Shown here one piece after another: positions 2,197-34,083 of a DNA stretch of 64,000 bases. Position numbers and translations under genes: made by a program. Under the pieces are notes generated by a model. The model did no database searches. It was not told where the DNA came from and worked only from the letters and a program-made list of their open reading frames with translations. Source of the DNA: Lutibacter sp. A64. Lineage in GTDB: Bacteria > Bacteroidota > Bacteroidia > Flavobacteriales > Flavobacteriaceae. The stretch's first letter is position 1; each line of letters begins with the position of its first letter. The stretch spans positions 2,374,001-2,438,000 of the forward strand of contig NZ_CP092487.1 in assembly GCF_022429565.1 (NCBI RefSeq), given 5' to 3'.

Positions 2197-2259
2197 TTCT
2201 TTTAATTATTTAAACTTATCTTTTATTTTGATTCACTTTTTTAAAACAACACTTAAAAA

Positions 2260-4862: not shown

Positions 4863-4912
4863 TCGTATTATATTTTAAGTTTATTTCTAATTAATTTTAT
4901 AACTTATTTCTT

Positions 4913-7471: not shown

Positions 7472-7493
7472 TGAAATTAATTATTTAATACGC

Positions 7494-8145: not shown

Positions 8146-8188
8146 TTTGACTTATTTAAAACCTAGCAATATTTCAGTTACAATACTC

Positions 8189-9619: not shown

Positions 9620-9661
9620 TTTCTTGAATATTAAATTATTTATCAAAACTTAATTTTTATA

Positions 9662-11302: not shown

Positions 11303-11404
11303 TTATTAAAAGTTTAAAATATTGTTTTCTATTTAGTAGACTATTTATCTACAGACTTTATTGCCATTACATAACAACTTACAAATGCATAAATATTTAT
11401 TAAC

Positions 11405-12811: not shown

Positions 12812-12960
12812 TTTTATAATACATTTTATTAATATAATTCTAATTTACTAAGGTAATTTATTCTATAGCTAAACGCTATAATTTTAACCTATATATGGAT
12901 TCACAGTAGCTTTTTTTATTAAAACATTATACGATATAATAATTTTTATGGTTCGTTTAA

Positions 12961-14469: not shown

Positions 14470-14507
14470 TATTCGGTATTTTTTTATGTATTCAAGTGAA
14501 ATAAGAT

Positions 14508-17114
14508 CTAATCTGTTTGAATATTTTTATCTGGCAAATTGCTAAAAAGATCTTTACCATTGGTATTAATAAATGCTTTAATTGAGTATTTAGATTTTTT
14601 TACCAATTCAGAATTTGGAACAAATACCTCAAACGTTTTTGACTTAATTGACAATTTTTTACCTTGCACAATTTGCTCTTCAACAGTTAAATAAGATATA
14701 TTTTCTATTTTAAGACCGTAAGAATACTCACCGTCTAATAAAATATTTTTAAATGCTACTTTAAACAAATAACCATTGTCTTGTTTTTCAATATCGGTTA
14801 TATTTATTAAGTACTTTTCATCTGTTCCAAACAAAGTGGCTGTATTAGGATAAAAATTACTTTCTCCCGCAGATGTTTCAGCTTTAACAGTATAGAAATA
14901 AAGCTTATCTTTTTCAGCTGAAGTATCTTTATAAAAAACACCTTTTATGCCACTTGCTATTTTATGATATTTATGCAGTTCCACTCCTCTATAAATGTTA
15001 TACGTAGTTTCTGGAAGAATTGAATTTTGTTCAATCCATTTTACAGATACAGTTCCATCTTCAGCTCTAATTGCAGATACATTTCTTGGACTTAACGGCA
15101 CTTTTTCAGACAAAACAAGTGTTTCTCCTTTTGAAAACTCTCCAATACCAATACCATTATATGCTGCAACTGAAAACTTGTAAGGTACATTATACTCTAA
15201 ACCGTCTACTCTAAAACCAAATACATTATTGGCTTCTACTAAAGTTTCTTTGTTATTAGTTTGGTTTATATATTTAAGCTTATATCCAGAAGCATTTGGC
15301 ACACTTTTCCAAAAAATAGTGGCTGTATTATTTCTTCTCGATGTTTTAAATATTTCTGGTATAGTTGGAATACTATTTTTTATAACTATTTGATTAGAAA
15401 ATTCACTTGATCCTTGTTTATTTTCTGCATTCATTTTAAAATAATAAATAGCATCCTTTTTTAACTTGTCAATTTCTATTGAATTTACAGAAGGATCTTC
15501 AATCTTAATTTTCTGAATTAAGTTATTAGAATCTTCACCATAAAAAATAGTATAATTTTTTACATTTTCTATTTCTCCCCAAGTTAATTTAATACCTGAA
15601 GCCATTATTTCTCCTTTATAAATTGTTGGATTTGCAGGCTTAGTTACTAATTTAGAACTCCATTTGGCAACAGAAACACTAAATGGTGGAATATTAATTT
15701 TTCCATTATTAAAAACCGCTTTTTGTATTTCGGTATTTTTAACGTTAAGTGAGTCTGCAGTAATGTAATTTACCTCAATTTGTTTATTTAGTTGATTCCC
15801 ATCAATAATTATATCAAAATCTTTTGATTGCACTGTTCTGTTGGTAAACACTAAATAATCGTAGCCATTTATACCGCGATATGCTTGTGTATAAAACCCT
15901 GTTTCAACAGCATTTTTTAGACCAGGAGCTTCAAAACCATTTGTAACAGTTGAGTTAAATATAAAATTTGAATGATTAGTTACATCGTGATAAATTTCAT
16001 ACGCCTTACCTTCTAATGTTTTATTTACACCTGTTGAAATAAGGTCTGTTTGAAGTTTAGTACCATTTTTATAAGCCTCTTCAATTTGATTATTAATATT
16101 TATTTTAGGCCTATACTTACTACTTACCTCATGAGCACCAATATACCAAGAATTTGGGTGTTGTAACTGACGCATAACATATTCTATATTATAAATACTA
16201 GAATAAATACCATTTAATGGTGGATTCCATACGCCAAATTCAGTAATAACCATAGGTACATTATCCCAAGTATAATCTTCAATTTCTTGCATTGCCTCCA
16301 TAGAAGTTGCTTCTAAAAGCTTAGTATTTGCTCTTTTATAAGCGTTCTCTATTGTTTCTTTTTTACCAGTATGTGGAGCGTATGAATGTTTAGAAAACAC
16401 ATTCCAATAAGCACCTTGTTGCTTTTGGTAACTGTTAATTTCTTTCATAAAACCCCAAATACCATCCCAAGTATTATTTAAAGCTAAAAATGCTTCAGGA
16501 AATACTTCTTTAATAGCATCTGCATGTGGTTTCATTTTAGCTGCATAATCGTAGCCATTATTCCACCAATAACGTTCTCTATGAGGGACATAAAAATAAG
16601 GTTCGTTACAAAATTGCCAAATTGCGACTTCAATATTATTGTTTTTACAGAATCTTGCAAGCTCGCGTGTCATTTCTGGAGTTTCAGAAAACCCATTAAT
16701 AGTTACAATTAACTTTCCATTTATTTCACTCAACAAATCATACAAATCTATAATACGATGTGGTCCTTTAATTTCTGTAAATCTATAACCTTTTAAATAT
16801 GACTTAGAATGATCGAACATCATAGCATAATCAATATCGTATTGACCTGTGGCGCTACTAAATGCATCTCCCATAGTTCCAGAAAAATAGCGTAACCACC
16901 CTGGGTTTAACTCATGAACCGCTTTTCTAAAATCTGGATGTAAATAACTCCAACTTTTGTCTGCAATTCTAACATTAAAACCACTAGAACCAATTTTTAT
17001 AGCATGCCCTGTTTTTGTATCAATATTAATTACACCTTCTTTTTCTTGAGAATAAGACAGCTGAAAAAACAAGCAAATAATTACTAAAATATGTTTGTTT
17101 TTAAACACCCTCAT
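14508..17114 (-). CDS. Clan GH-A-like glycosidase with three fibronectin type III domains
   Basis: This 868-residue protein has a cleavable signal peptide (FFQLSYSQEKE) and no lipobox. Residues 30-390 form a probable TIM barrel with acid/base-type WQFCNEPYF (Glu near 170) and nucleophile-type MVITEFGVW (Glu near 290). About 390-490 is a beta domain. Three FN3-like modules follow at about 490-580, 580-670 and 670-770, each with the W...Y pattern (IKLTWGEIENVKNYTIFYG, ATIFWKSVPNASGYKL, VSVKWIEQN). The last 100 residues are another beta-rich segment without an obvious T9SS sorting tail. FN3 spacers suit an enzyme acting on large polymers. The start codon lies 1 bp after the stop of the upstream sulfatase gene, so translation is likely coupled. 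The GH family is unresolved. Confidence 0.75.
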   Translation of the reverse strand: MRVFKNKHILVIICLFFQLSYSQEKEGVINIDTKTGHAIKIGSSGFNVRIADKSWSYLHPDFRKAVHELNPGWLRYFSGTMGDAFSSATGQYDIDYAMMFDHSKSYLKGYRFTEIKGPHRIIDLYDLLSEINGKLIVTINGFSETPEMTRELARFCKNNNIEVAIWQFCNEPYFYVPHRERYWWNNGYDYAAKMKPHADAIKEVFPEAFLALNNTWDGIWGFMKEINSYQKQQGAYWNVFSKHSYAPHTGKKETIENAYKRANTKLLEATSMEAMQEIEDYTWDNVPMVITEFGVWNPPLNGIYSSIYNIEYVMRQLQHPNSWYIGAHEVSSKYRPKININNQIEEAYKNGTKLQTDLISTGVNKTLEGKAYEIYHDVTNHSNFIFNSTVTNGFEAPGLKNAVETGFYTQAYRGINGYDYLVFTNRTVQSKDFDIIIDGNQLNKQIEVNYITADSLNVKNTEIQKAVFNNGKINIPPFSVSVAKWSSKLVTKPANPTIYKGEIMASGIKLTWGEIENVKNYTIFYGEDSNNLIQKIKIEDPSVNSIEIDKLKKDAIYYFKMNAENKQGSSEFSNQIVIKNSIPTIPEIFKTSRRNNTATIFWKSVPNASGYKLKYINQTNNKETLVEANNVFGFRVDGLEYNVPYKFSVAAYNGIGIGEFSKGETLVLSEKVPLSPRNVSAIRAEDGTVSVKWIEQNSILPETTYNIYRGVELHKYHKIASGIKGVFYKDTSAEKDKLYFYTVKAETSAGESNFYPNTATLFGTDEKYLINITDIEKQDNGYLFKVAFKNILLDGEYSYGLKIENISYLTVEEQIVQGKKLSIKSKTFEVFVPNSELVKKSKYSIKAFINTNGKDLFSNLPDKNIQTD

Positions 17115-17115
17115 C

Positions 17116-18603
17116 TTAATCTACATTTAAAAAAGTTGTTTGACTAAATGTAAATACATCTGATGGTGTTCTTGCTTCTTTAATTATAGTTTCCATTTTT
17201 GAAACTATTTCAGGATTTTGAGCTGCTACATTATTTTTCTCACTTGGATCTTTAGATAAATCGTACAATTGAATTGGAGCATTAGGATTTTTAAGCACTT
17301 GATATTTTACAGCTTTCCAATCTCCCATTCTTACAGCCTGACGACCGCCTTTTTCATGAAACTCCCAATATAAATATTCATGTTCTTTTTGCGCTTCAGT
17401 ATTACCTAAGATTTCTGGTAAAAATGAAATTCCATCTATATTATTTGGTTTGTCTACACCTATAATATCAGAAAATGTTGGAAAAACATCCCAAAAAGCA
17501 GAAATATGGTTAGATGTACTATTCTCTTTAACTTTCCCTGGCCACTTAACAATCATTGGCACTCTAATTCCCCCTTCATATAAATCTCTTTTCGTTCCTT
17601 TAAAAACACCATTACTATTAAAATAATTTGGATCTGCACCACCTTCTTTATGTGGACCATTGTCTGATGTAAAAATAATAATTGTATTATCAGCTATTCC
17701 AAGTTCTTCAACTTTAGTCATTATTTCACCAACTTGTTGATCTAATAAATCAATCATAGCCGCAAAAGCAGCATGAGATTCATTTTGAGACTGGTATGCT
17801 CCATTTCTTAATTCTGCAGGAGTACTATTATCTGTAAACACTTTTTCTGGTAAAAATTTACCTCTGTACTTAGCCATAAGTTCTTCTGGGGCTGCTAATT
17901 CAGCATGTGGAATAATAGATGCTACATATGCAAAAAATGGTTTATCCTTATTATCTTCTATAAATTGGATGGTTTTTTCGTGAATTACACTTGGTGCATA
18001 AATTTTATTTGCAAAGTTTTCGTTACCTTCTAAAACAATAGAATCTCTATTTGACCATAAATGATCTGGATAATACTTATGCCCTAATCGTTGACAATTA
18101 TACCCGAAAAAAGTATCAAACCCTTGATTTACAGGATCTCCTTCTGAACCAGGAAAACCTAATCCCCATTTACCAAAAGCACCTGTTGTATAACCTGCTT
18201 TTTTCATAACTTCAGCTAAAGTATATGTATCATCCGGTATTGGATATTGTCCTTCTGGTTGAATTTCTTTATTACCTCTAACAACCGTATGACCAGTGTG
18301 CATACCAGTTAAAAGAGCAGAACGCGATGGTGCACAAACAGTACTTCCTGAATAATGCTGTGTAAACATCATTCCTTTAGAAGCTAGTTTATCTATATTT
18401 GGTGTAGAAAATTTTTCTTGGCCATAACAGCTTAAATCTCCATAACCAAGATCATCTGCAAGGATATAAATTATGTTTGGTTTACTTGTACTTCCTTCAA
18501 CATTGGAAGCTACAGAATCTTGTGTCTTATTGTTAGACGAATTACATGACATTAACACTATTGAAAACAATAGAATTAAAATGGAAGTTGAAATTTTAGT
18601 CAT
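17116..18603 (-). CDS. S1-family (Cys-type) sulfatase lipoprotein D
   Basis: This 495-residue lipoprotein (SIVLMSCNS, Cys near 20) has ILADDLGYGDLSCYG with metal-binding Asp near 50-51 and the CAPSR formylglycine motif with Cys near 90. It continues ALLTGMHTGHTVVRGN, GKWGLGFPG (Trp-Gly in place of the usual Trp-His) and FTSDNGP. The GKWGLG variant and the TGHTVVRGNKE segment mark a subgroup different from the other four sulfatases here. It is the first intact gene after an approximately 465-bp gap holding a gene relic, and is translationally tight with the FN3 hydrolase downstream. Confidence 0.92.
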   Translation of the reverse strand: MTKISTSILILLFSIVLMSCNSSNNKTQDSVASNVEGSTSKPNIIYILADDLGYGDLSCYGQEKFSTPNIDKLASKGMMFTQHYSGSTVCAPSRSALLTGMHTGHTVVRGNKEIQPEGQYPIPDDTYTLAEVMKKAGYTTGAFGKWGLGFPGSEGDPVNQGFDTFFGYNCQRLGHKYYPDHLWSNRDSIVLEGNENFANKIYAPSVIHEKTIQFIEDNKDKPFFAYVASIIPHAELAAPEELMAKYRGKFLPEKVFTDNSTPAELRNGAYQSQNESHAAFAAMIDLLDQQVGEIMTKVEELGIADNTIIIFTSDNGPHKEGGADPNYFNSNGVFKGTKRDLYEGGIRVPMIVKWPGKVKENSTSNHISAFWDVFPTFSDIIGVDKPNNIDGISFLPEILGNTEAQKEHEYLYWEFHEKGGRQAVRMGDWKAVKYQVLKNPNAPIQLYDLSKDPSEKNNVAAQNPEIVSKMETIIKEARTPSDVFTFSQTTFLNVD

Positions 18604-18686: not shown

Positions 18687-18694
18687 CAAAGGTA
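18687..18694 (-). promoter_or_regulatory. Possible internal Bacteroidota promoter (-7 element)
   Basis: Read on the minus strand this is TACCTTTG, a match to the Bacteroidota TAnnTTTG -7 consensus, 83 bp upstream of the sulfatase D start. I see no good TTTG -33 box at the usual spacing. The rest of 18,604-18,835 holds no recognisable gene. It may allow extra transcription of the distal half of the PUL arm, but a chance match in AT-rich DNA is possible. Confidence 0.3.
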
Positions 18695-19069: not shown

Positions 19070-21379
19070 TTAAAGCTTTAATAACTGATTGTTAAACTTT
19101 AATACTTCACCTACTTTTGTATCAAAACTTTTTAGAGTTTTTCCATAACGAACTTGTAAGTTATTTCCCAGTTTAGAGCGTACAACAAGCGATTGAAGTT
19201 TTCCTTCTTTCCATTCTATATCTACTTCAAAGCCTTTACGAGCCACAATACCTTTTATTGAACCATTTGCCCATTCTTTTGGTAAAGCAGGCAATACAAA
19301 TATTTCTCCTTCATGGCTTTGCATTAACATTTCTGTGACACCAGAAACCAACCCAAAATTACCATCAATTTGAAATGGAGGATGTTTATCTAATAGGTTG
19401 GGTAATGTAGATTTTTGTTGCAATGCTACAATATTTTCATGGGCTTTTTGAGGCTCTAATAAACGCGCCCAAAAGTTTATAATCCAAGCTCGACTCCAGC
19501 CTGTATGACCACCTCCGTTAGCCAATCGATGTTCTATGGTTTTTTTTGCAGCTTCAAATAACTCAGGTGTTTTTGTTTTTGAAATTTGATTAGAAGGATG
19601 CAAAGCATATAAATGAGATATATGTCTATGCCCTTCATTTTCTTCTTTAAACTCTTCAACCCACTCCATTAAACGTCCATCACTTCCTATTTTAAGTGGC
19701 GGCATTTGCTGCATTTTACTTTGTAGAGTATTTTTAAAATCAATGTCGATACCCAAAATATCTGCAGCTGAAATACAATTTTGAAACAATTCAAAAATTA
19801 TTTCTCTATCCATTGTAGATCCCATACTAATGGTTGCCATTTCTCCATTTTTATCTAAAAAACTATTTTCGGGTGATACAGAAGGCCCTGAAAGTAACTG
19901 CCCTGTTTTAGGGTCAATTACCATAAAATCTACAAAAAACTGCGCAGCTTCTTTCATTACAGGATATGCATAATTTTTTAGGTACTCTTTATCTTCTGTA
20001 TATTCAAAATGTGTATACAAATGTTGGCAACACCAAGCTGCACCCATAGGCCACATACCATATCTTGCCCTTCCAAAACCAAAAGTATTGTGCCAAATAT
20101 CACTCGTATGGTGTGCCACAAAACCGCTACAACCATAAGTTTCTTTTGCTGTAATTCGCCCCATTTCACGAAGGTTACCGATATATTCTAAAAACGGTTC
20201 ATGGCATTCAGATAAATTTGTCATTTCTGACATCCAATAATTCATTTGAACATTGATATTGATATGATAATCGGAATTCCAAGGAGGTGTTAAACCATTA
20301 ACCCATATTCCTTGTAAATTGGCAGGTAATGTTCCTGGTCTAGAACTACTAATTAATAAATACCTTCCAAACTGATATTGAAGCTGTGTAAGGTAATTAT
20401 CGAAGCCTCCATTTTTTACTTTTTTAAGACGTTGATTTGTAGGTAAATCTAAACCATCATTATCTGAAATATGAAAATCTACTCGTTTAAACAAAGAGCG
20501 ATAATCAGCAATATGTTTTTCCTTTAATTCATTGTAATTTAAAGACAATGCGTGGTCTAAATTCTGCTGACACAAGGTCTTCGGGCTATCAGTACGATAA
20601 TCGCTAACTGCAGTTACACGGATAATTACCTCATCCGCTTCTGATATCACTAATTTTCCATCTTTAACTTCTAATTTTCCTCCTTTTGTTTCAAAATGAA
20701 TAATAGCATAAAACTTAACACCTATTCCGTCCCCTACATGCTCAGAAAATTTTATAACATTCTCAGCCAATTCAATTTTAGTATTTTCAGTACGTTTAAC
20801 ACCTGCAGAAAAACTAACAGAACTATCTTTATCTGCTGAGTATTTAAAAACCATCACTTTATCGGGAAAACTAGAAAAATATTCATTCTTATAAGTAATC
20901 CCATTTTTTTGAAATGAAGTTGTTACAATAGAATGGTTTAGATCTAATTCACGTTTATAATTCAAAAGGCTATCTAAATCAGAATTTTCAATAAATAAAT
21001 TCCCCAACATCTGATTTGCATTGGTTCCTGAAGGTAAACGCTTTGCTAATAATTTTTCGGCAACTACCTTTTCAGCTTCAACATATTCACCATCAAACAA
21101 TAATTGGCGAATCTCACCTAAAGCCTTATTCCCATCCTTTTTATCATTATACCATTTTTTCCCACTCCAAATAGTTTCTTCATTAAGGCAAATTATTTCT
21201 TTTGTTGGAGTTCCATAAATCATACTTCCTAAGCTACCATTACCAATAGGCAAACCTTCATCCCATTTTGTTGTAGGCTGATTAAACCAAATTTTTAAGG
21301 GTGTTTCTTGCTCTATTTCAGCTGTTTTAGAACAACCAAAAATTATAAAAATCAGCAATATTGGAAGTATGTTTTTCAT
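19070..21379 (-). CDS. GH95 alpha-L-fucosidase / alpha-L-galactosidase lipoprotein
   Basis: This 769-residue lipoprotein (IFIIFGCSK, Cys near 16) shows the full GH95 order: KIWFNQPTTKWDEGLPIGNG near the N-terminus, NEETIWSG, LLISSSRPGTLPANLQGIW, then NININVQMNYW-like DYHININVQMNYW containing the Asn residues that assist the water, PSVSPENSF with the probable acid Glu, and PPFQIDGNFG with the base Asp. GH95 enzymes are inverting alpha-1,2-L-fucosidases or alpha-L-galactosidases. The full length (about 770 residues) matches the family. It is the second gene of the minus PUL arm and points to L-fucose or L-galactose as a side-chain sugar. Confidence 0.92.
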   Translation of the reverse strand: MKNILPILLIFIIFGCSKTAEIEQETPLKIWFNQPTTKWDEGLPIGNGSLGSMIYGTPTKEIICLNEETIWSGKKWYNDKKDGNKALGEIRQLLFDGEYVEAEKVVAEKLLAKRLPSGTNANQMLGNLFIENSDLDSLLNYKRELDLNHSIVTTSFQKNGITYKNEYFSSFPDKVMVFKYSADKDSSVSFSAGVKRTENTKIELAENVIKFSEHVGDGIGVKFYAIIHFETKGGKLEVKDGKLVISEADEVIIRVTAVSDYRTDSPKTLCQQNLDHALSLNYNELKEKHIADYRSLFKRVDFHISDNDGLDLPTNQRLKKVKNGGFDNYLTQLQYQFGRYLLISSSRPGTLPANLQGIWVNGLTPPWNSDYHININVQMNYWMSEMTNLSECHEPFLEYIGNLREMGRITAKETYGCSGFVAHHTSDIWHNTFGFGRARYGMWPMGAAWCCQHLYTHFEYTEDKEYLKNYAYPVMKEAAQFFVDFMVIDPKTGQLLSGPSVSPENSFLDKNGEMATISMGSTMDREIIFELFQNCISAADILGIDIDFKNTLQSKMQQMPPLKIGSDGRLMEWVEEFKEENEGHRHISHLYALHPSNQISKTKTPELFEAAKKTIEHRLANGGGHTGWSRAWIINFWARLLEPQKAHENIVALQQKSTLPNLLDKHPPFQIDGNFGLVSGVTEMLMQSHEGEIFVLPALPKEWANGSIKGIVARKGFEVDIEWKEGKLQSLVVRSKLGNNLQVRYGKTLKSFDTKVGEVLKFNNQLLKL

Positions 21380-21413: not shown

Positions 21414-22934
21414 TTATTGTTTCAAGTTTTCAAATATTTGAATCAATTCTTTTAACTTTTCAGGATTTTCTTTTGCCAAATTATTTTGTTGACCTATATC
21501 ATTTTTAAGATTATAGAGTTTATATTCTAATGAATAACCTGTTTCTGTACCAACTTTTTTATTAATACTTTGCCCTTTATATGGTGGTATCATAATCCAA
21601 TCTCCACTTCTTAAAGCTGTATTAGATTTTGCTTCAATAATTAAATGATCACGACCTTTATCTGAAACCCCCATTAATGTATTTAAGAAGTTTTTACTAT
21701 CAGTTGATTTTTCATTTACCCCAACAAGATCTGCTAATGAAGCCAATAAATCCATTTGACAAATTATAGCATCTGACACGCCCGGATTAATTTCACCTTT
21801 CCAATAAGTTATAAAAGGTACACGTGTTCCTGCTTCAAAAAGGCTGTATTTACCTCCGCGTAAACCTCCTTTAGGATCGTGATTACCTAATTTTTCAACG
21901 GCATCATCAAAATAACCATCATTTAAAACAGGACCATTATCGCTAGAAAATACAATAAGAGTATTCTCTAAAATTCCTTCATCTTCAAGGGTTTTTATAA
22001 ATTCTCCTATACACCAATCTGCCTCTAAAATAACATCGCCTCTTGGCCCCATTCCTGATTTACCAACAAATCTTGGATGCGGAGTTCTTGGAACATGTGG
22101 CTGTTGCATTGCATAATAAAGAAAAAATGGTTTTTCTTTATGTGTTTTTATATAATCTTGTGCTTTACTTAAAAAATGATCTGCCATATCAACATCACTC
22201 CATTTTGCTGCTTCCCCACCTTTCATATATCCAATTCTTGGAATACCATTTACAATGCTATTATTATGACCATGGTGCCATTTCATTGTTAGCATTTCTG
22301 GATTTGATTTTGCTGTTGGTTCTCCTTCAAAATTCTTTTTATAATTAACCTCAATAGGATCACTTTTATCTAAATTTACCACATTCCCATTTTCAATATA
22401 AACTGTAGGTACTCGATCTTGAGTGGCGGCTAAGATGTATGCTTCATCAAAACCCACTTCATTAGGCCCTGGTTTAATAGTCTCATTCCAATTTACAAAT
22501 CCCGATCCTAAACCTAAATGCCACTTTCCAATAATAGCAGTTTGATAACCTGCTTTTGATAGCATTTTAGGTAAAGTTTGTTGCTTTGTGTCTATTAACA
22601 AAGGAGCATCTCCTGGTAATATTTTAGCATCTTTATTTCTCCAAGGATACATTCCAGTTAATAAAGCATAACGACTAGGTGTGCAAGTTGCAGAAGTAGC
22701 ATAACCATTGGTAAATTTTACACCTCCCAATGCTAAATTATCGATATTTGGAGTTTTTATAGCTGTTGCTCCATAACAACTTAAATCCCCATATCCTAAA
22801 TCATCAAGGTAAATAACTACAACATTAGGTTTAATTGTATCTTTATCTATAACCGTGGATGTATTGTTTTTACAACTTAAGTTTACGAGTAATATAAATG
22901 CACCTAAGAAGCTTTTGTATAATTTTAAATTCAT
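21414..22934 (-). CDS. S1-family (Cys-type) sulfatase lipoprotein E, first gene of the minus PUL arm
   Basis: This 506-residue lipoprotein (LLVNLSCKN, Cys near 21) has VIYLDDLGYGDLSCYG with metal-binding Asp 44-45 and CTPSR with formylglycine Cys near 84. YALLTGMYPWRNKDA and GKWHLGLGSG follow, then a long insertion with TQDRVPTVYIENG, and FSSDNGP. Sequence features link it to sulfatase C more than to A, B or D. It is the promoter-proximal gene of the minus arm, 58 bp downstream of a TAnnTTTG element and 87 bp from the shared operator copy. GH95 follows after 34 bp, so desulfation and fucosidase steps are made together. Confidence 0.92.
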   Translation of the reverse strand: MNLKLYKSFLGAFILLVNLSCKNNTSTVIDKDTIKPNVVVIYLDDLGYGDLSCYGATAIKTPNIDNLALGGVKFTNGYATSATCTPSRYALLTGMYPWRNKDAKILPGDAPLLIDTKQQTLPKMLSKAGYQTAIIGKWHLGLGSGFVNWNETIKPGPNEVGFDEAYILAATQDRVPTVYIENGNVVNLDKSDPIEVNYKKNFEGEPTAKSNPEMLTMKWHHGHNNSIVNGIPRIGYMKGGEAAKWSDVDMADHFLSKAQDYIKTHKEKPFFLYYAMQQPHVPRTPHPRFVGKSGMGPRGDVILEADWCIGEFIKTLEDEGILENTLIVFSSDNGPVLNDGYFDDAVEKLGNHDPKGGLRGGKYSLFEAGTRVPFITYWKGEINPGVSDAIICQMDLLASLADLVGVNEKSTDSKNFLNTLMGVSDKGRDHLIIEAKSNTALRSGDWIMIPPYKGQSINKKVGTETGYSLEYKLYNLKNDIGQQNNLAKENPEKLKELIQIFENLKQ

Positions 22935-22991: not shown

Positions 22992-23047
22992 CAAATTTAA
23001 AATTTTTATACCAAAAAAACTTCTCAATTATGGGGGGTAAATGTTAC
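22992..23047 (-). promoter_or_regulatory. Operator and promoter of the minus PUL arm
   Basis: On the minus strand the 27-bp operator (23047 to 23021, containing TTTACCCCCCATAATTGAG) is followed by a 21-bp spacer and a -7 element TAAATTTG at 22999-22992. No TTTG -33 box is seen, and the operator occupies that upstream zone, which fits activator-dependent transcription. It drives the sulfatase E / GH95 operon. Confidence 0.75.
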
Positions 23048-23416
23048 TTTATTTGAATAAAACAATCTTAAAATCATTTATATCAGGGTTTTAACATTTT
23101 TTAATACTGTTATTTCTTCACCTTACTAAAAGTTGATTTAATGTTGTACAGATACATAAATCTCCACAACAAACTATAATTATTCACTCAACACCTATTA
23201 AAAACAAAGCCCTAATTACAATGTAAGACCACCGTTTAATAGACTGCTAAACAAGTACTACAAAGTTTAAATTCCTAATAATAAAAAGATTTTATTATTA
23301 TTAAAATTAGCATTAAACAACCCTTATTTGCTTTATAAATTATTTTTCAAAACAATGGTAATATTTTGTTAAAACCCATAAACAACACTATTTTAACAAG
23401 GCTATTTAACATTTCA

Positions 23417-23472
23417 GTAACATTTACCCCCCATAATTGAGAAAATCAAAACATTTAAACATCTTATTTTTG
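23417..23472 (+). promoter_or_regulatory. Operator and promoter of the plus (SusCD) PUL arm
   Basis: The second, perfectly inverted copy of the 27-bp operator (23417-23443) is followed by a 21-bp spacer and the -7 element TATTTTTG at 23465-23472. The layout is base-for-base the same as in the minus-arm promoter, although the 21-bp spacers differ in sequence. The identical spacing argues that a single activator binds beside RNA polymerase at both promoters. Confidence 0.78.
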
Positions 23473-23539: not shown

Positions 23540-26500
23540 ATGAAATTAAAGATAATTACACTTTTTACATGCTGTTTTAGTCTTATTTCTGTATGGTCCC
23601 AATCCAACGTTTCAGGTACGGTGACTGACGAAACAGGAATGCCACTAATCGGCGTTAATGTTTTAATTAAGGACACTTCAAAAGGTGTCACTACAGATTT
23701 TGACGGTAATTTTCAAATTAGCGTAAATCCAGGCGAAATTTTAAGTTTCTCGTATATTGGTTACAAGGAACAAACAGTATTAATCAACACCCAAAAAACC
23801 TTAACAATTGTAATGGTTGAAAACGCTTCAAAATTAGATGAAGTTGTAATTGTTGGGTATGGTTCACAAAAAAAAGAGAGTGTTTTAGGAGCCATTAGCC
23901 AAGTAAAAGGGGCAGAAATAATAGAATCTGGTGCTTCTAATATTACCAATGCATTAAGTGGACTTTCACCAGGTTTAAATATTGTTCAAACTACTGGTGA
24001 ACCAGGAGACGATGCGGGTGATATTTATATTCGTGGTAACTCAGACCCATTAATATTAGTAGATGGGGTTGAAGTTGTTGGAGGGTTTGCAAATATAGAC
24101 CCTAGAGATGTAGCAAGTGTTAGTACACTTAAAGATGGTGCTGCTACTGCCGTTTACGGTATTAGAGGTGCAAACGGAGTTATTATAATTACTACAAAAA
24201 GAGGTCAAATAGGAAAACCAGTAGTAAATATAACTAGTGAAGTTACTATGAAATTTTACCCAGACAAATATGATTCTTTAGACGCATATGCTGCTGAGAG
24301 TTTACGAAATGTAGGTGTCTATAATGACGCTGCTTTTGATACTGGTTTCTCTACACAAGCTGAATTAGAACACTATAAAAATGGAGATTTACCTTATATC
24401 TATCCAAATACAGATTGGGTTGACTATACAACAAAAGACTTTGCAACAAGTTTTAATCAGTCGGTGTCTGTAAGAGGTGGTACAGATTTTGTTAAATATT
24501 ATGCTTCTGCAGGATATTTACAAGAAGGTGACATTACAAATTCTAAACAATATTACAACTTCGATCCAGAATATAAATTTGAAAGATATTCATTTAGAGG
24601 AAATTTAGACTTTACATTATCTAATACAACTCGTTTAAAAACAAGTGTTAGTAGCCGAATAGAAGATCAAAATAAAGCGCGTGGATCTGCCAGCACCGAT
24701 TTTTTAAGGCTGTTTACAATTGCTCCAGGAGGTAGTGTACCATATTACCCTGAAGAAGCCCTAGAACTTTACCCAGACCCTCTTTACCCTGGATTGGTAG
24801 AAAATAGATTCCCTATAAGTCGTACAATAGGTACTTTTCTTGAAGGATCAACTAATACTATAAAAACAATTTTCTCTATTGATTTTCAGTTAGAACAAGA
24901 CTTAAACTTTATTACTGAAGGTTTAACATTTACGGGTAAATATAACTTTATTAGTAATTACCAAACAAAAAGTGAAATAAAATTTGACTCATCTTTAGAA
25001 ACAAGACTAGATAGATACGATTTACTACCTGATGGTACTTGGGACTCTTTTGAAGGTGCAGATTACGAACGTCCTTACGATTTTAATTTAGGAAGTGAAA
25101 GTATTAATAATACTCAAGAAATAACTTATACAAAAGCACAATTTGATTATAAACGTTCTTTTGATAAACATAGCGTAACAGCATTAGGAGCTTTTAGTCG
25201 TAATAAAAGAATTAACAACACAGATTTCCCTTATTATGAAGAAGTTTGGGTTGGTAGAGCAACTTACAACTATGATACTCGTTATTTTTTCGAAATAAAT
25301 GGTTCATACAACGGTGACGAAACTTTTGCTGAAGGACAACGTTTTAAGTTTTTCCCATCATATTCTGTAGGTATTAATTTAGCTAAAGAAAAATGGGTAG
25401 AAGAAGCCATACCAGCTCTTAACAATTTTAAAATTAGATATTCTAATGGTAAAACTGGAACAAAAAGTGGTTTAGGAACCAACCGTTGGCAATATTTAAG
25501 TTTCTATGATAATATAAGTGGAACTGCATCAATAAGACCAACTTGGAGATATAACTTTGGAGAAGGTGATACAGGACGTTTATCTGTTATTAGAGAAACC
25601 CAACTTGGAAACGAAGAATTAACATGGTCTACAGTTACAAAACAAAATTTAGGTGTTGAATTTGGACTTTTTGACAATGAAATATCTGGAGAAGTTGAGG
25701 TATTTAAAGATAAAAGAGACGGTTTAATTGCCAGACCATCTGCTACCATTCCTGGTTACGCTGGTTTTGTTACCGGACTTCCTTTTGGAAACTTAGGCTC
25801 AACAGAAAGTCATGGTCTTGAAGCTACTTTAACCTACAAAAACAGAACCGAAGGCGGATTTAAATATTCTGCATCTGTTGTTTATGCTTTTTACGAAAAC
25901 AGAGTTCTAAAAAGTGCCTCGGATGGAGCTGGTACACCTGAATATACCAAAATTGAAGGGAAACCAATCGGCGCATCATCATTACTACAAACAGATGGTT
26001 ATTTCCAAAATATTGATGAATTAGTAAACTACCCAGTTTACGCAGGAGATCCAGGTTTAGGAGATTACAGATATATTGATTATAATGCAAATGGAACAGT
26101 AATAGGTACTAATATTGAAGATCAAATTCGATTTGATTTACCAAAATCGCCTAAACACAGTTATAGTGTAAAATTAAATGGATCATATAAAAACTGGTCT
26201 CTAAGCGCCTTAATTAACGGTATTGAAGGTCATAAAGGTCTTGTTAATGGAAGTTTAGCTTACGCGCTTCCTGAAGGTGTTTCTTCAGCGCGTTACGAGC
26301 AATTAGACTATTGGACACCTAGTAATCCAGATGCTGCATATCCAGCTATACATGCAGATGTAAACGACCCTAATTTAGCAGCAGCTACTACAGGTAGAAT
26401 TGTTAGTCTAGACTATATTAAATTACGAAGCGTAAATCTTGGATATAAATTTAATATGGAAAAAAGTAATAGTATTAAATTATTGAAAATTTATATTAGC

Positions 26501-26614
26501 GGTACCAACCTTCTTACCATTTCTGATATGAAATATGCGGATCCTGAAGGAAATTCTCCAGGTGCTTACCCAATACTACAAAGAGTTAACCTAGGTTTAA
26601 ACATGAGCTTTTAA
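23540..26614 (+). CDS. SusC-like TonB-dependent outer-membrane transporter (first pair)
   Basis: This 1,024-residue protein has a signal peptide (CCFSLISVWSQS), then a carboxypeptidase-regulatory-like domain (about 23-100: VSGTVTDETGMPLIGVNVLI), a TonB-box-like DEVVIVGYG near 110, a plug with GNSDPLILVDGVEV and YGIRGANGVIIITTKRG, and a long beta-barrel ending in aromatic NLGLNMSF. SusC proteins import oligosaccharides across the outer membrane together with a SusD lid lipoprotein. The gene is first in the plus arm, 67 bp downstream of the -7 element. The 11-bp gap to the SusD gene confirms the pair. Confidence 0.96.
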   Translation: MKLKIITLFTCCFSLISVWSQSNVSGTVTDETGMPLIGVNVLIKDTSKGVTTDFDGNFQISVNPGEILSFSYIGYKEQTVLINTQKTLTIVMVENASKLDEVVIVGYGSQKKESVLGAISQVKGAEIIESGASNITNALSGLSPGLNIVQTTGEPGDDAGDIYIRGNSDPLILVDGVEVVGGFANIDPRDVASVSTLKDGAATAVYGIRGANGVIIITTKRGQIGKPVVNITSEVTMKFYPDKYDSLDAYAAESLRNVGVYNDAAFDTGFSTQAELEHYKNGDLPYIYPNTDWVDYTTKDFATSFNQSVSVRGGTDFVKYYASAGYLQEGDITNSKQYYNFDPEYKFERYSFRGNLDFTLSNTTRLKTSVSSRIEDQNKARGSASTDFLRLFTIAPGGSVPYYPEEALELYPDPLYPGLVENRFPISRTIGTFLEGSTNTIKTIFSIDFQLEQDLNFITEGLTFTGKYNFISNYQTKSEIKFDSSLETRLDRYDLLPDGTWDSFEGADYERPYDFNLGSESINNTQEITYTKAQFDYKRSFDKHSVTALGAFSRNKRINNTDFPYYEEVWVGRATYNYDTRYFFEINGSYNGDETFAEGQRFKFFPSYSVGINLAKEKWVEEAIPALNNFKIRYSNGKTGTKSGLGTNRWQYLSFYDNISGTASIRPTWRYNFGEGDTGRLSVIRETQLGNEELTWSTVTKQNLGVEFGLFDNEISGEVEVFKDKRDGLIARPSATIPGYAGFVTGLPFGNLGSTESHGLEATLTYKNRTEGGFKYSASVVYAFYENRVLKSASDGAGTPEYTKIEGKPIGASSLLQTDGYFQNIDELVNYPVYAGDPGLGDYRYIDYNANGTVIGTNIEDQIRFDLPKSPKHSYSVKLNGSYKNWSLSALINGIEGHKGLVNGSLAYALPEGVSSARYEQLDYWTPSNPDAAYPAIHADVNDPNLAAATTGRIVSLDYIKLRSVNLGYKFNMEKSNSIKLLKIYISGTNLLTISDMKYADPEGNSPGAYPILQRVNLGLNMSF

Positions 26615-26625: not shown

Positions 26626-28545
26626 ATGAAAAAAACAAAATATACATTTATTTTAATCTTGGCAAGCCTTTTTATTAGCTGTGAAGATTATTTAGACAAT
26701 GAACAATCCTTCGAATCATTAGACCAAACCGATGTATTTAGCGACATTCGTTTGGCTACAAAATATTTAGATGGTGCTTACACCTACTTAATTTCTGAAG
26801 TAAGTGCTAAATCTAGTGCCCCAGATATACTTCCAGGTATGACAATGTCCGGAGAAGGTTACCCTGGCAGAATGGGTAATAGTGTACCTCAAAGATATAT
26901 GTCGTACGCCAATTCAGATTATTTAGGTTTAATGAACCTATCACCTGGAGCTGGAACTGCTACTACACCAAATTTTGTATCTAGATATTTTGAATCTTGG
27001 AAAGGAATTAGAACTGTAAATAGTTTTCTTGAAAATAGTGATAAAATAAGTAATGCTTCCGAAGAAGATGTTAACGGCTTAATTGGCCAAGCGCATTTTT
27101 TAAGAGCCTATTTTTACCACTTAATAACAAAACGTCACGGAGGTCTTGTTTATTTAAAAGAAAACTTAAGTCTTAACGAACCTCTAGAACGAGAAAGAGA
27201 AACTTATGCTAGTAATTTAGCGGATATGTTAGAAGATCTAGATCTTGCTATAAGCTTACTTCCAATAGCATGGGAATCTGAAAACGTAGGACGACCAACA
27301 AGAGGTGCTGCTATGGCTCTAAAATCTAGAATTACATTATTTGCTGCCAGTCCTTTAGTAAATACTTCAAACGACCAACAACCTTGGATAGATGCTGCAA
27401 CTGCTGCTTCAGACCTAATTAATTATGCAAATGAAAATGGTTTATACAACCTTGTAGACGCAAGCAGTGCTAACAGTATAGACGTTGGCCATAATGGTGC
27501 TGATCTTTTTACTCCAGAACCAGAAGCTTTACTACCTTACCGAAATGTATTTGTTGGAGTAGGTAAATCAAAAACATTACCTCAAGAAGTTATTTTTATG
27601 GAGGTGAATGATTTTACTGCTGGTGGTGGTGGAACTTTAGTTCCGCTTCCTAGAACATATTTAACAACAGGGTTTGACATAGCAAAAGGTAACAATAACC
27701 CAATGAATATTGGAGCATTAGCTAATTTTATAGAAAAATTTGAAACAAAAAGTGGTCTTCCAATTGAAGACGACCCTTCATACAACCCTCAAGAACCATT
27801 TATTAATAGAGATCCTAGATTTTATAATGCAATTTTATTTGATGGAGTTCCATGGACAGTTACAACTGCTAATGCAGTAAACAAATCGGGTGCTGCTGAC
27901 TTAGCAATCGTAAATGAAGAAGGTAAACTAGGATTAGACATTCATGACCCTGCAACACCAACTAATAGATTTTGGCAAGTTAAAAATACAACTGGTCTAC
28001 GCATAAGAAAATGGATTCCAAATGGATATTATTTAACATCTGGTTGGAAAGGACATTTAGACTATTATGCAAATAATATACTGTTCAGAATGTCTGAAAT
28101 TTATTTAAACTATGCTGAAGCTGCAAATGAAGCATATGGCCCAGGAGGAACTGCCCCAGGAGCAAGCTTATCTGCCCTTGATGCTGTAAATAAAATAAGA
28201 AACAGAGTAGGAATGCCTAATGTAAATGCTAAATACTCTGGTTCTAAAGATGGTCTAAGAGAACGAATTAGAAATGAACGTGCTATTGAATTATGTTTTG
28301 AAGGTTTTAGATATGATGATATAAGAAGATGGAAAACGGCTCATTTAGAAGAAAACTTAAAAGTTGAATTTTTAGAAATGCGTTGGCAAGGTGGAGAATC
28401 AGAAATTTACCCATCAGGATTTAGTTATGAAAATGTAGAGCGCACAGATTTAAGAAAAACATTTAATGAAAGAAACTATTGGTGGCCAATTCCTAGTTCA
28501 GAAATTGAAGCGGTACCAACATTTAGACAAACAGATGGCTGGTAA
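26626..28545 (+). CDS. SusD-like glycan-binding lipoprotein (first pair)
   Basis: This 639-residue lipoprotein (LASLFISCEDYLD, Cys near 20) has a RagB/SusD layout: TPR-like helices (RAYFYHLITKRHGGLVYL), SLLPIAWESENVGRPTRGAA, and the C-terminal RNERAIELCFEGFRYDDIRR plus WWPIPSSEIEAVP, all family hallmarks. SusD forms the lid over its SusC partner and captures oligosaccharides at the cell surface. It is somewhat longer than the common 500-550 residues because of an insertion in the middle (about 290-460). It is translated 11 bp after susC. Confidence 0.95.
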   Translation: MKKTKYTFILILASLFISCEDYLDNEQSFESLDQTDVFSDIRLATKYLDGAYTYLISEVSAKSSAPDILPGMTMSGEGYPGRMGNSVPQRYMSYANSDYLGLMNLSPGAGTATTPNFVSRYFESWKGIRTVNSFLENSDKISNASEEDVNGLIGQAHFLRAYFYHLITKRHGGLVYLKENLSLNEPLERERETYASNLADMLEDLDLAISLLPIAWESENVGRPTRGAAMALKSRITLFAASPLVNTSNDQQPWIDAATAASDLINYANENGLYNLVDASSANSIDVGHNGADLFTPEPEALLPYRNVFVGVGKSKTLPQEVIFMEVNDFTAGGGGTLVPLPRTYLTTGFDIAKGNNNPMNIGALANFIEKFETKSGLPIEDDPSYNPQEPFINRDPRFYNAILFDGVPWTVTTANAVNKSGAADLAIVNEEGKLGLDIHDPATPTNRFWQVKNTTGLRIRKWIPNGYYLTSGWKGHLDYYANNILFRMSEIYLNYAEAANEAYGPGGTAPGASLSALDAVNKIRNRVGMPNVNAKYSGSKDGLRERIRNERAIELCFEGFRYDDIRRWKTAHLEENLKVEFLEMRWQGGESEIYPSGFSYENVERTDLRKTFNERNYWWPIPSSEIEAVPTFRQTDGW

Positions 28546-28604
28546 TATATCTTTTTTAAAGACTATATCTAAAACATCTAACTTAAAACTATAAAATAAA
28601 ACAA

Positions 28605-31400
28605 ATGAAAATAACCATAAAAAAATTAAAAGGTTTTGTTTTCTGCGTATTTAATGTTCTCGCTATTAATATTGGTGTAGCTCAAAATACTCCATTAAAA
28701 AGTGTAGCAGCACAAGAAGATTCGCAACAAATAACAAATAATGATGAATTTCTAAAAACACCATTTGGAGTTTTTAACATTACGCAAACAACTGGTGCTA
28801 TCTTTAGAATTTCTGGTGATGAATTAAGAAAATCAGGTGGTGATAATTTAATGAACTCATTAAGAGGAAAAGTACCTGGATTAAGAATTATTAGAACTAG
28901 TAACACCCCAGGAAATGGTGGGTATTCATATACCCTAAATGGTGGTACTCCTAACGTATTAATCGATGGTCAACCTAGAGGTTTACAAGTTGATTTAAGA
29001 GATATAGAGGAAGTAATAGTACTTAACGATGCTACTTTTAACTCTTTGTTAGGAAATTTAGGTGATAATGGACTTATTTACGTAATAACAAAAGGTAATA
29101 AACCTAGTAAACCAGTAATTGAAGTTAATTATCAAAATTCTTATAACACACCTTCACACTTGCCTAATTTATTATCGGCTGCAGAGTATGCAACTGTAGT
29201 AAACCAAGCGGCAAATAATGATGGATTAGCTAATATATATAGCCCAGAAGCTATTGAAGCATACAGAAATGGTTCAGACCCAATTAATTTTCCAAATATA
29301 GATTCTCAAGAAACATTTTTAGAAGACTTTACTCCGTCTAATTATTTATCTCTTAACTTATACGGTGGAAAAGAAGAACTTACATACAGTGCTTTTCTAG
29401 GTTATTCAGACTGGAAAGGATTAGAAAAAATTGGAGCAATTGATGGTCGAAACATTACTTTTAGAACTAAAATTAATACAAAAATTAATGATATTTTAAA
29501 AGCTCATGCTAGTGTTTATGGTAGATTTGGACTTAACGACAGACCTGTAATTGGACCTAACGATACATTTAGTTGGATAACAAACACACCAGCAAATGCT
29601 TTCCCTTTAAAGGTTGGAGACTCTGCTTATGTTGTTAATAATCAATATAAAACTAATTTATTATCAGAATTAGAAAATGGAGGAACAAGAACAGATTATA
29701 CTTCTAATATGATTTTTGATTTGGGTATGGATTTCGATTTTGGAAAATTTATTGAAGGCCTTTCCTATAGTACATACATTATGATGAAAACTTATAATGC
29801 ACACTCTTTAGTTACTAATAATACTCCTGCTTTATACACCCTAGAGAACTTTCAAGATATTACAGGGCAAGATTCTTTAGCTTTAAAAGTAAAAACAAAT
29901 AAATATTTAGACCTATCTGTTGGAAGAACAGGAGGTGCAATTCAAAGAGATTTTGCTTATGGAGGTAATTTTAGCTACATCAAAAAATTTGATGAAAGTG
30001 TCTTAAATTTAAATTTAAATCACCTTTTATATTATCAACCAAATACTAATTCTAGTCAAACAGATAAACGTAACATAACATTAAACTTAAATGGTGCGTA
30101 CGCTCTAAAAGATAAATATATTTTATATGCCAATCTAAACTCTAGTAGTAGTTCAAGATTTCTTGATGAAAATAAAACTAAATATTACCCTACTGTTGGT
30201 GCAGCTTGGGTAGCATCAAATGAAGACTTTTTAAAAGATAATGATGTAATAGATTACTTAAAACTTAGAACATCATATGGTATAGTAGGAACCGAATATG
30301 GTTTTGAAACTCTTTTATATTTAGATACTTGGAGTGGTGGTAGAAACAATGGTACTACTTTTCTTGGTACAACAGGAAACCCATCACAAGATGAGCTAGG
30401 ATATAGATTAAGTACAACAGGTAATGAAGCTATTGATTGGGTTGAATACAATCAATTATTTGCTGGTATAGAATTACAACTGCTTAAAAAATTACGATTA
30501 GATTTTAATTACTTTGATATTGAAGTTAACAATCAAGTTGTAAAAGCAAGTCAACTTTATGCAAGTGCCTTAGGAAATGACGTGTATTTACCTCAGCTAA
30601 ACTACAAACAAAGTAGAAATAAAGGCTTTAACTCTAGTGTAACTTTTAACAACAACACAAATGCTTTAAAGTATTATATAAGTGCAAATGTTGGACACTA
30701 TAAATCTATAGGACAAAAAATAGCTGAAGTTCAATATCCAGACCAATACAGATTAAAAGAAGGTAAAGCCCAAGATCTAATTACAGGTTATGTAAGTGAT
30801 GGACTTTTTACAGCAGAAAATATTGGTAATGCACTACCTCAATTTGGAGACGTACAAATTGGAGATATTAAATATGTTGACCTAAACGGTGATAATATAA
30901 TTGATACTAGAGATCAAAAAGCTATTGGTAACAGCACTCCAAGATATAATTATGGTATTAGTGTTGGATTTGAATACCAAAATTTCAATCTAGATATTGC
31001 AGGTATGGGTGTTGCAGGATATGATATTAATTTAAACTCATATTCATACTACAAACATAGCGGTTTAGGCAACTATTATGGAAGTGTAAATAATGATTTA
31101 CCTAATGGAAATGCAAACCCAAGATTAAGTACTTTAACTAGTATTAATAATTACAAAAACTCTGATTATTGGATATTAGATAGAAGCTTTTTTAAAATTG
31201 CAAACTTAGAATTAGGGTATGCAATGCCAGAAACATTAATCTCGAACACTCCATTATCTAACGTAAAAATATTTTTAAGAGGTAGTAATTTGGCAGTATT
31301 TAGTAAAATGAAAGATTTAGATCCAGAAGACCCAAGTGCTGGTTTTTCTGAATACCCTATGATGAAAACTTTCTCTTTAGGTACTACTATTAATTTTTAA
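28605..31400 (+). CDS. Second SusC-like transporter, lacking the usual N-terminal domain
   Basis: This 931-residue SusC-family protein has a signal peptide (LAINIGVAQN), a plug domain (ISGDELRKSGGDNLMNSLRG, GTPNVLIDGQPRG, GDNGLIYVITKG) and a TonB-dependent barrel ending FSLGTTINF. It lacks the carboxypeptidase-regulatory-like module found in the first SusC, and a TonB-box-like DEVVVxGYG string is not seen in its roughly 60-residue N-terminal linker. It follows the first SusD by 59 bp and precedes its own SusD by 20 bp. It likely imports a different oligosaccharide from the same polymer, though TonB coupling must use a diverged box. Confidence 0.92.
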   Translation: MKITIKKLKGFVFCVFNVLAINIGVAQNTPLKSVAAQEDSQQITNNDEFLKTPFGVFNITQTTGAIFRISGDELRKSGGDNLMNSLRGKVPGLRIIRTSNTPGNGGYSYTLNGGTPNVLIDGQPRGLQVDLRDIEEVIVLNDATFNSLLGNLGDNGLIYVITKGNKPSKPVIEVNYQNSYNTPSHLPNLLSAAEYATVVNQAANNDGLANIYSPEAIEAYRNGSDPINFPNIDSQETFLEDFTPSNYLSLNLYGGKEELTYSAFLGYSDWKGLEKIGAIDGRNITFRTKINTKINDILKAHASVYGRFGLNDRPVIGPNDTFSWITNTPANAFPLKVGDSAYVVNNQYKTNLLSELENGGTRTDYTSNMIFDLGMDFDFGKFIEGLSYSTYIMMKTYNAHSLVTNNTPALYTLENFQDITGQDSLALKVKTNKYLDLSVGRTGGAIQRDFAYGGNFSYIKKFDESVLNLNLNHLLYYQPNTNSSQTDKRNITLNLNGAYALKDKYILYANLNSSSSSRFLDENKTKYYPTVGAAWVASNEDFLKDNDVIDYLKLRTSYGIVGTEYGFETLLYLDTWSGGRNNGTTFLGTTGNPSQDELGYRLSTTGNEAIDWVEYNQLFAGIELQLLKKLRLDFNYFDIEVNNQVVKASQLYASALGNDVYLPQLNYKQSRNKGFNSSVTFNNNTNALKYYISANVGHYKSIGQKIAEVQYPDQYRLKEGKAQDLITGYVSDGLFTAENIGNALPQFGDVQIGDIKYVDLNGDNIIDTRDQKAIGNSTPRYNYGISVGFEYQNFNLDIAGMGVAGYDINLNSYSYYKHSGLGNYYGSVNNDLPNGNANPRLSTLTSINNYKNSDYWILDRSFFKIANLELGYAMPETLISNTPLSNVKIFLRGSNLAVFSKMKDLDPEDPSAGFSEYPMMKTFSLGTTINF

Positions 31401-31420
31401 TAAGTTAAAACATAAAAAAA

Positions 31421-33157: not shown

Positions 33158-33177
33158 AAAAATTAAACATAAAGATT

Positions 33178-34083
33178 ATGAAAAATAACAAATTAAAATC
33201 TATTTCCAAATTATTGGTATTGGTTATAATTGGACTTAGTATTGTATCGTGTTATGATGATTTTGTTGAAGACGAATTTGAATTTACTTCAGTTTACTTA
33301 CCAAAACCAACAATTGACCGTACTTTTATAATGGGTGAAGGAATGCAAATTGGAGTTGGCGTTGTACTAGGTGGAAGACTTTCTAATTCTGAAAATGTAG
33401 AAGTAACATTTTCGTTAAATGATGCACTTGTAACAGATCAAGGTCGCACTGTTTTACCTTCAAATTATTATAGCCTTGTAGATAGTGAAGGAAACCCTGC
33501 AAATAATAAAATAATTATTCCATCAGGTAAAACTCAAGGGTTTGTTTATGTTAAAGCAGATTCTATTAGCTTTCTTAATGACGCATTATCTCTTGGAAAT
33601 AATTATGCTTTAGGGTTTGAATTAGAAAATGTAGTAAAAGCAGATTCTATTTTAACAGATTACAAAACATCCATGATTACCTTTACCTATATCAATCAAT
33701 TATATGGTAACTACGTTCAAAAAGGACAATTTGTAAAAAATGATGGAACAACACAAGAAACTATTGAATATCCAGGTGAAATTACAGATGCCTTAGAATT
33801 AACTATGGTTTCTCCAAATACTTTGTCTTATGACGGTCTCACGGACTTAAGAGGAGCTGATAAAAAGCTATATATTACTATAGCCGATGACAACTCAATA
33901 AGCATAAGCACAGCAGAAGGTGGTGTTCCTGTTATAGACGACGGTGGGTCATCTTATAATCCAGAAACACGTGAGGTTAAACTAAACTATTCTTTCGAAT
34001 TTAATGGCGTTAGTTATAAAGCTAATGATATTCTTGAATTTAGAAACAGAATTGTAGATGGAGTAAATCAGTACGATTTATAA
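33178..34083 (+). CDS. DUF1735-type surface glycan-binding lipoprotein (SusE-position)
   Basis: The start is placed at the ATG at 33178, which opens the lipoprotein signal (GLSIVSCYDDF); a longer frame would overlap the SusD stop and add basic residues before the signal. The protein is about 301 residues. Residues 35-180 resemble the DUF1735 beta-sandwich found in BT_3987-like surface proteins (VYLPKPTIDRTFIMGEG, VTFSLNDALV, IIPSGKTQGFVYVKAD). The C-terminal half is a beta-rich, probably carbohydrate-binding domain (YGNYVQKGQFV). Such genes often follow susCD and hold glycan at the cell surface. It is the last gene of the plus arm, before a strong terminator. Confidence 0.8.
   Translation: MKNNKLKSISKLLVLVIIGLSIVSCYDDFVEDEFEFTSVYLPKPTIDRTFIMGEGMQIGVGVVLGGRLSNSENVEVTFSLNDALVTDQGRTVLPSNYYSLVDSEGNPANNKIIIPSGKTQGFVYVKADSISFLNDALSLGNNYALGFELENVVKADSILTDYKTSMITFTYINQLYGNYVQKGQFVKNDGTTQETIEYPGEITDALELTMVSPNTLSYDGLTDLRGADKKLYITIADDNSISISTAEGGVPVIDDGGSSYNPETREVKLNYSFEFNGVSYKANDILEFRNRIVDGVNQYDL

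Follow-up and report, generated by a model that had tools for sequence, protein, structure and literature searches.

The stretch of DNA analysed here (hereafter the window) comprises 64,000 nucleotides of the Lutibacter sp. A64 genome (G000) and carries a PUL whose import side has two SusC/SusD-like pairs, the opposite side encoding sulfatases, GH95, SASA esterases and GH43-like enzymes (Table 1). The gene order of the import arm is conserved in G421, G420, G002, G323 and G153. The GH95 enzyme and the many sulfatases, together with a gene for fucose isomerase that adjoins the PUL in both G421 and G323, suggest that the substrate may be a sulfated fucose-containing glycan. No regulator gene was found among the PUL proteins scanned, in agreement with an earlier reading of the letters alone (the sequence-only reading), which had noted none in the PUL part of the window.

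Table 1. Operators, promoter boxes and genes of the window PUL.
Feature	Position in window	Strand	Remarks
Operator before susC arm	23417..23443	+	27 bp; conserved upstream of orthologous susC in G421, G420, G002, G323 and Polaribacter vadi
-7 box TATTTTTG	23465..23472	+	Exactly 21 bp past operator; 67 bp ahead of susC ATG
Operator before sulfatase/GH95 arm	23021..23047	-	27 bp; kept in G421 with two base changes
-7 box TAAATTTG	22992..22999	-	Exactly 21 bp past operator; 57 bp ahead of sulfatase ATG
Third operator GCAACATTTGTGGGTCTCAAATGAGAA	18716..18742	-	Centre GGGT instead of CCCC; 0 mismatches to GYAACA-N16-GAGAA-N21-TANNTTTG
-7 box TACCTTTG of third operator	18687..18694	-	21 bp past operator; 83 bp ahead of sulfatase ATG
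SusC-like TonB-dependent receptor, first import-arm gene	23540..26614	+	Pfam CarbopepD_reg_2, Plug
Remaining import arm: SusD-like, second SusC/SusD-like pair, 310-aa protein without Pfam match	26626..34083	+	
Sulfatase, first enzyme-arm gene	21414..22934	-	Pfam Sulfatase
GH95 glycoside hydrolase, enzyme arm	19070..21379	-	Pfam GH95 catalytic domain, E 4.4e-179
Sulfatase behind third operator	17116..18603	-	Best G002 match 76%
More enzyme genes: sulfatases, SASA esterases, GH43-like, fn3 protein	616..17114	-	

A 137-aa frame at 7732-8145 (minus strand) matches part of a 737-aa gene of the near-identical G421 at 94%, and in G421 two further genes stand between the 737-aa gene and its neighbour; G000 seems to have undergone a deletion that left a gene remnant here. 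Immediately to the left of the PUL, the minus strand has an open frame of 10,082 codons (G000:C1 about 2336001-2366222; L164, L163, L005), which reaches the end of the stretch viewed and by eye resembles a repetitive surface-type protein. Integrase-core (rve) transposase genes lie on both sides of the PUL (L005:11635-12183 and window 42192-43025). A fucose catabolism cluster borders the PUL in G421 and was not seen next to it in the G000 flanks retrieved. Fucose isomerase and an AraC regulator are located beside the PUL in G421 (L153:1-10607) and G323 (L258:11013-14627), and the G421 cluster also holds, by eye, aldolase, aldehyde dehydrogenase and kinase genes and an MFS transporter.

Between the two arms of the window PUL, a 27-bp sequence occurs as TTCTCAATTATGGGGGGTAAATGTTAC at 23021-23047 and, after a gap of 369 bp, as its exact reverse complement at 23417-23443. 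Reading outward, each copy is followed by exactly 21 bp and then by a TAnnTTTG box, and the two 21-bp spacers are unrelated in sequence. Coordinates, gap, perfect inversion, 21-bp spacing and differing spacers had all been described by the sequence-only reading, and the sequence and a repeat finder bear them out. That reading had also proposed a genome-wide search, naming many copies unrelated to promoters as the outcome that would speak for a dispersed repeat. Across the whole single-contig genome of 4,028,615 bases, the 27-mer was found at up to three mismatches only in the two window copies, and its reversed control gave 0 matches. For a 19-base core at the same tolerance, the two matches in the window compare with 0.01 expected from 100 shuffles. 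A dispersed repeat is ruled out by this lack of any further copy within three mismatches, and even the degenerate outer-box pattern described below yields just five sites in the genome, three of them within the window PUL. While both copies given by the sequence-only reading stand, it had overlooked the third, diverged operator of Table 1, which is weak by matrix (score 17.8) but matches the outer-box pattern perfectly. The third operator is the same in G421 and nearly the same in G399. The sulfatase behind it has its best G002 match (76%) in the gene directly behind a G002 operator that adjoins the gene of a hybrid two-component system (HTCS), and GGGT-type sites like the third operator adjoin the HTCS gene in both G002 and G383. 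The remaining enzyme genes on the minus strand are probably read from the third operator, operon membership being judged from gene order and strand only.

Orthologues of the window SusC were found in G421 (97%), G420 (60%), G002 (80%), G323 (76%), G153 (61%) and Polaribacter vadi (57%). Upstream of susC in all of these except G153, where no operator was found, a version of the operator is followed exactly 21 bp on by a -7 box, which reads TATTTTTG in G421 as in G000, TAAATTTG in G420, TAGATTTG in G002, TAATTTTG in G323 and TAATATTG in P. vadi. The perfect identity of the two window copies is not kept in G421, whose left copy has AAACCCC for ACCCCCC. The relatives share a degenerate consensus, GYAACAWWT-N3-CCCC-N6-GAGAA, and a strict 24-mer at up to three mismatches, too strict a pattern for these degenerate relatives, was found among 397 family genomes in G000 only. 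The pattern AATTGAGAA with a spacer of 20-22 and TAnnTTTG matched 11 of 38 genus genomes, and only the PUL matches of G000, G421 and G420 were operator-like; a refined fixed-spacing pattern gave 16 matches in five of seven genomes, all within these PULs, and none when reversed.

An alignment of 18 sites (counts on 16, near-duplicates from G421 dropped) delimits a 27-bp block, GYAACA..T..(A)CCCC...TTGAGAA, and outside this block and the box only weak columns occur, the strongest being column 34. As judged from the alignment, the natural bounds of the element are the 27 bp given by the sequence-only reading, since the conserved block ends there. That reading had also placed a run of six C/G in the core, which proved non-essential: the centre varies among relatives, with the C-run replaced by GGGT or GCCTA at some sites, and this rules out a poly-C run as the core. 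A palindromic operator is likewise ruled out, the best axis tried being 38% complementary against 26% in shuffles. The sites match themselves best at an offset of 22 bp (37% identity vs 29% in shuffles; z 4.6 from within-site shuffles, an overstated value as columns are shared). The operator is one asymmetric 27-bp block in which the boxes GYAACA, CCCC and GAGAA lie about 11 bp apart without an evident tandem repeat, and no second strongly conserved block was found within 60 bp upstream of it.

Forty distinct sites were compiled by hand, and 38 of them precede a demonstrable reading frame (one, in G002, called from TTG); the other two are G000:C1:3871625, whose surroundings lie outside the retrieved DNA, and a P. 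vadi site at the end of its locus. By eye, backed for some by Pfam or comparison, the genes behind the 38 sites are 14 SusC-like genes, 12 sulfatases, five GH2-like genes and seven others, so that 31 fall into the first three classes. The gene start lies 26-161 bp past the box at 37 of the 38 sites and 373 bp past it at one (G121). The outer-box pattern GYAACA-N16-GAGAA-N21-TANNTTTG, with up to one mismatch, finds five sites in G000, namely the two perfect copies, the third site with its box (18687-18742), and sites at 3858605 and 3871625. On comparative evidence, the 27-bp element is an operator and not a private repeat.

The sites were gathered partly with fixed-spacing patterns, so their spacing is partly given by construction. 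Evidence with free spacing comes from the first readings of the susC upstream regions, one scan over 20-22 and two over 15-27. The 20-22 scan gave two matches at 22 (L023 and L030; scores 17.4 and 20.3), which we take for chance. In the earlier 15-27 scan, 19 of 27 matches stood at 21 bp and the other eight had their best box elsewhere, and the same scan of 78 control SusC loci returned one match, at spacer 25. Eleven free-spacing matches, eight at other spacings and three at 21 bp (L244, L245, L248), were left out of the 40 sites.

The likely regulator of the operator is an HTCS encoded at G000:C1:3839228-3843277, located 1.44 Mb from the window PUL and beside a second PUL. The sequence-only reading had included the HTCS class among its regulator candidates; it had expected them at the PUL border, which does not hold for this gene. 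The orthologue in G323 combines a Reg_prop propeller and Y_Y_Y sensor, HisKA, HATPase, a receiver and an AraC-type HTH in one protein, and the G000 protein is 59% identical to it over query residues 16-1367 (the domains having been scanned in the G323 protein). Both the phospho-acceptor His and the receiver Asp are kept in the G000 HTCS, within the aligned motifs SHELRTP and DILMP. Identities to the G323 protein are 75% in G002, 65% in P. vadi, 59% in G421 and 51% in G420, where the gene is cut by the contig end. G153, the sole genome with a SusC orthologue in which no operator was found, has no HTCS orthologue either, its best match being 36%. The HTCS gene is linked to the PUL in G323, G002, G420 and P. 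vadi, lying inside the same PUL as the operators in G323 and G420, and to the second PUL in G000.

With E no higher than 1e-230, orthologues turned up in 16 of the 397 family genomes. Together with those of G421 and G399 and the cut one of G420, all from the genus search, and that of P. vadi, they form a set of 20 HTCS-positive genomes; E-value cut-offs define this set and leave out HTCSs of up to 41% identity, and the G399 match contains one stop codon. Compared with the HTH domains of G323 or G000, those of the 19 full-length orthologues show 66-100% identity, while seven other HTCSs reach at most 43%. In a tree rooted by these seven, a root that carries a long-branch warning, 11 members form one clade (support 100/99), and all of them come from operator-carrying genomes. 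Five of the nine outer members have no operator near the HTCS gene; these are G212, G129, G236, G011 and G382, which form another clade, and no site was found in the roughly 40 kb scanned around each gene. A nearby site is lacking in these five of the 20 HTCS-positive genomes even though the HTH domains there share 68-76% identity with that of G323. The outer-box pattern matched 12 of the 20 HTCS-positive and three of 20 HTCS-negative genomes, and its reversed form gave two matches across all 40; the matches in G382 and G235 and four in HTCS-negative genomes are by eye unlike the operator between the fixed bases and were left uncounted.

A held-out test used a matrix built from 23 sites of six other genomes, with the spacer free between 15 and 27, on about 40 kb around the HTCS gene (32 kb in G235) in each of 13 HTCS-positive family genomes, 0.51 Mb in total. 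Four threshold pairs were applied, chosen by the analyst. At thresholds 12 and 3, 13 matches fell at 21 bp vs seven over the 12 other spacings together, and in the 78 control SusC loci (1.66 Mb) none fell at 21 bp and two at other spacings. Twenty column-permuted matrices at thresholds 10 and 3 yielded 0 or 1 matches each, three in total, vs 13 for the real matrix. With the looser thresholds 8 and 4, one control match appeared at 21 bp and the test set again gave 13. The operator was recovered at 21 bp, no more than 20 kb away from the HTCS gene, in eight of the 13 held-out genomes (G162, G169, G383, G121, G229, G207, G348 and G235). Four genomes (G002, G383, G323 and G121) have an operator about 190-240 bp past the HTCS gene start that points away from the gene, as in a divergent promoter. 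A weak operator-like site was also seen 86 bp before the HTCS start in G121 (L235, minus strand, offset 17700; scores 10.0 and 3.0, at the edge of the thresholds), a hint that the gene may regulate itself.

At the second PUL of G000, a GH2-like gene (71-73% identical to the GH2 genes of G002 and G323) and the HTCS gene are divergent, and past the GH2-like gene follow sulfatase-like genes and a susC-like gene, before which the operator at 3858605 stands, 15 kb from the HTCS gene; the site at 3871625 is 28 kb from it. By eye, a diverged operator was observed between the HTCS and GH2 genes (L223:2292-2347), with TATATTCG at 21 bp. In G002 and G323, a single stretch (roughly 93 and 80 kb, respectively) contains the HTCS gene, the matches to the window PUL (most genes at 67-90%) and the match to the second-PUL GH2 gene. 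The same genes form two loci in G000 and G421, with the HTCS gene unlinked to the window PUL. This suggests that one regulon was split, or two joined, without operator loss.

We posit, at a probability of roughly 85%, that the 27-bp element is the operator of this one HTCS, which would act in trans as an activator on the window PUL and on its own PUL. Comparison of genomes bears out the operator itself, its fixed spacing, its position before PUL genes and its co-occurrence with the HTCS clade; it likewise supports the sequence-only reading's proposal of an activator site that abuts the promoter core and coordinates both arms. An invariant spacer and an operator adjoining the promoter core are marks of contact activators, and repression requires no exact spacing. 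Binding of the operator by the HTCS and activation rather than repression are inferences, as are the ligand, operon extents and transcription starts given here. Counted against the proposal are the missing linkage between HTCS gene and window PUL in G000 and G421, the five HTCS-positive genomes without a site nearby, the free-spacing matches with boxes at other distances, the single control match under the looser thresholds, the weak repeat character and the receiver His missing from most orthologues. The periplasmic propeller sensor of the HTCS would respond to an oligosaccharide cleaved from a sulfated glycan that probably contains fucose. The three conserved boxes, about 11 bp apart and hence on one helix face, would suit an AraC-type domain. 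TAnnTTTG spans -12 to -5 in Flavobacterium psychrophilum, as described in PMC9723704, and if the same applies here, the HTCS would occupy its operators at about -60 to -34. The target promoters would have the TAnnTTTG box and a poor -33 element, in keeping with the collected sites, whose spacers hold no conserved -33 element, and RNA polymerase would be recruited by HTCS contact across the fixed 21-bp spacer. Three units of the window (SusCD import; sulfatase and GH95; sulfatase and downstream enzymes) would thereby be switched on in trans, together with the PUL adjoining the HTCS gene.

Other readers of the operator were considered. An AraC-family regulator of the L-fucose catabolism cluster is suggested by its gene (L153:3455-4354), which lies between fucose isomerase/aldolase and transporter genes adjoining the PUL in G421 and has a 74% relative near the fucose isomerase beside the PUL in G323. 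We regard it as very unlikely, as this regulator occurs in only these two of the searched flanks (loci of 5 kb or more from L127 onward), scans of the fucose clusters L153 and L258 returned no operator there, and the held-out operators lie close to HTCS genes. GntR sites are usually palindromes, and the non-palindromic operator argues against a GntR-family regulator with a periplasmic-binding-like domain, whose gene (L132:16657-17703) adjoins the PUL in G002 about 1.4 kb from an operator; with no relative found in the other flanks searched, this reader is extremely improbable. Perfect 27-bp inverted copies bounding an intergenic segment might also be recombinase repeats between which the 369-bp segment is inverted (phase variation), as in the invertible promoters of Bacteroides. 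However, the repeats enclose neither -7 box, and inversion would therefore leave the promoters unchanged; the two copies differ in G421; operators of relatives are single, kilobases apart or, in G323 (73009 and 73264), close together with different sequences; and the constant distance is that from operator to promoter box, not from copy to copy. The chance that flipping explains the pair is close to negligible.

More weight is due to a reading that overlaps the preferred one, in which the same HTCS represses, or both represses and activates, its promoters and occupies the operator without a signal. The His of the S/CHIP-DK motif, its position taken from the alignment, is missing in 17 of the 19 orthologues having the region, where N, S, T, D or A stands instead (the G000 HTCS reads SNIP there), and it is present in all seven other HTCSs aligned. 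The motif is common but not universal in HTCSs. According to PMC11253607, its His is 91% conserved and helps to hold the HTH domain inactive, and substitution of the motif is linked to phosphorylation-independent, constitutive DNA binding, with repression described for BT2391. The absence of this His from most orthologues makes unsignalled binding or repression possible; yet the phospho-acceptor His and Asp are retained and the invariant distance upstream of the promoter core suits activation, and we consider repression unlikely. Activation by the HTCS thus remains our preferred reading, and it would have two unusual traits, control over more than 1 Mb and a receiver that lacks the inhibitory His usual in HTCSs. 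A tentative and rather doubtful extension is that this clade of marine Flavobacteriaceae HTCSs has lost the inhibitory contact between receiver and HTH and sits on its operators without a signal, with one fixed-distance operator running, as a single regulon, PULs contiguous in certain species and over a megabase apart in others.

The proposed regulon resembles the HTCS regulons of Bacteroides thetaiotaomicron described in PMC3878776, in which HTCSs are assigned to PULs and operators stand before several PUL operons and sometimes a distant operon; it shares with them the AraC-type binding domain and about two helical turns between the outer boxes. The motifs reported there are direct repeats at an average distance of 21 bp, whereas the operator found here is an asymmetric block with a weak repeat signal at offset 22, and unlike the regulons reported there, the window PUL lies 1.44 Mb from the HTCS gene. 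SusR-type regulators (PMC3878776) are likewise Bacteroidetes PUL activators with periplasmic sugar sensing, but the SusR operators described are direct repeats whose centres are separated by 67 or 77 bp; here the linked regulator is an HTCS, and a strongly conserved second block is missing from the 60 bp upstream, the span compared. The TAnnTTTG -7 box of Flavobacteriaceae (PMC9723704) is present at all three window promoters. What differs here is the operator upstream of it, always 21 bp away, and a spacer with no conserved -33 element. Among the matches listed for the literature on flavobacterial or fucoidan PUL regulators or motifs, no title or abstract mentioned an operator of this kind for fucose-sulfate PULs of marine origin.

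Sequence alone here ties a PUL in which no regulator gene was found to a probable distant sensor. The operator is searchable as GYAACA-N16-GAGAA-N21-TAnnTTTG and predicts which promoters should respond together, so that orphan PULs of algal-glycan degraders may become assignable to their sensors. If the doubtful reading of an inhibition-free clade were true, rearrangement could separate regulator and target without rewiring.
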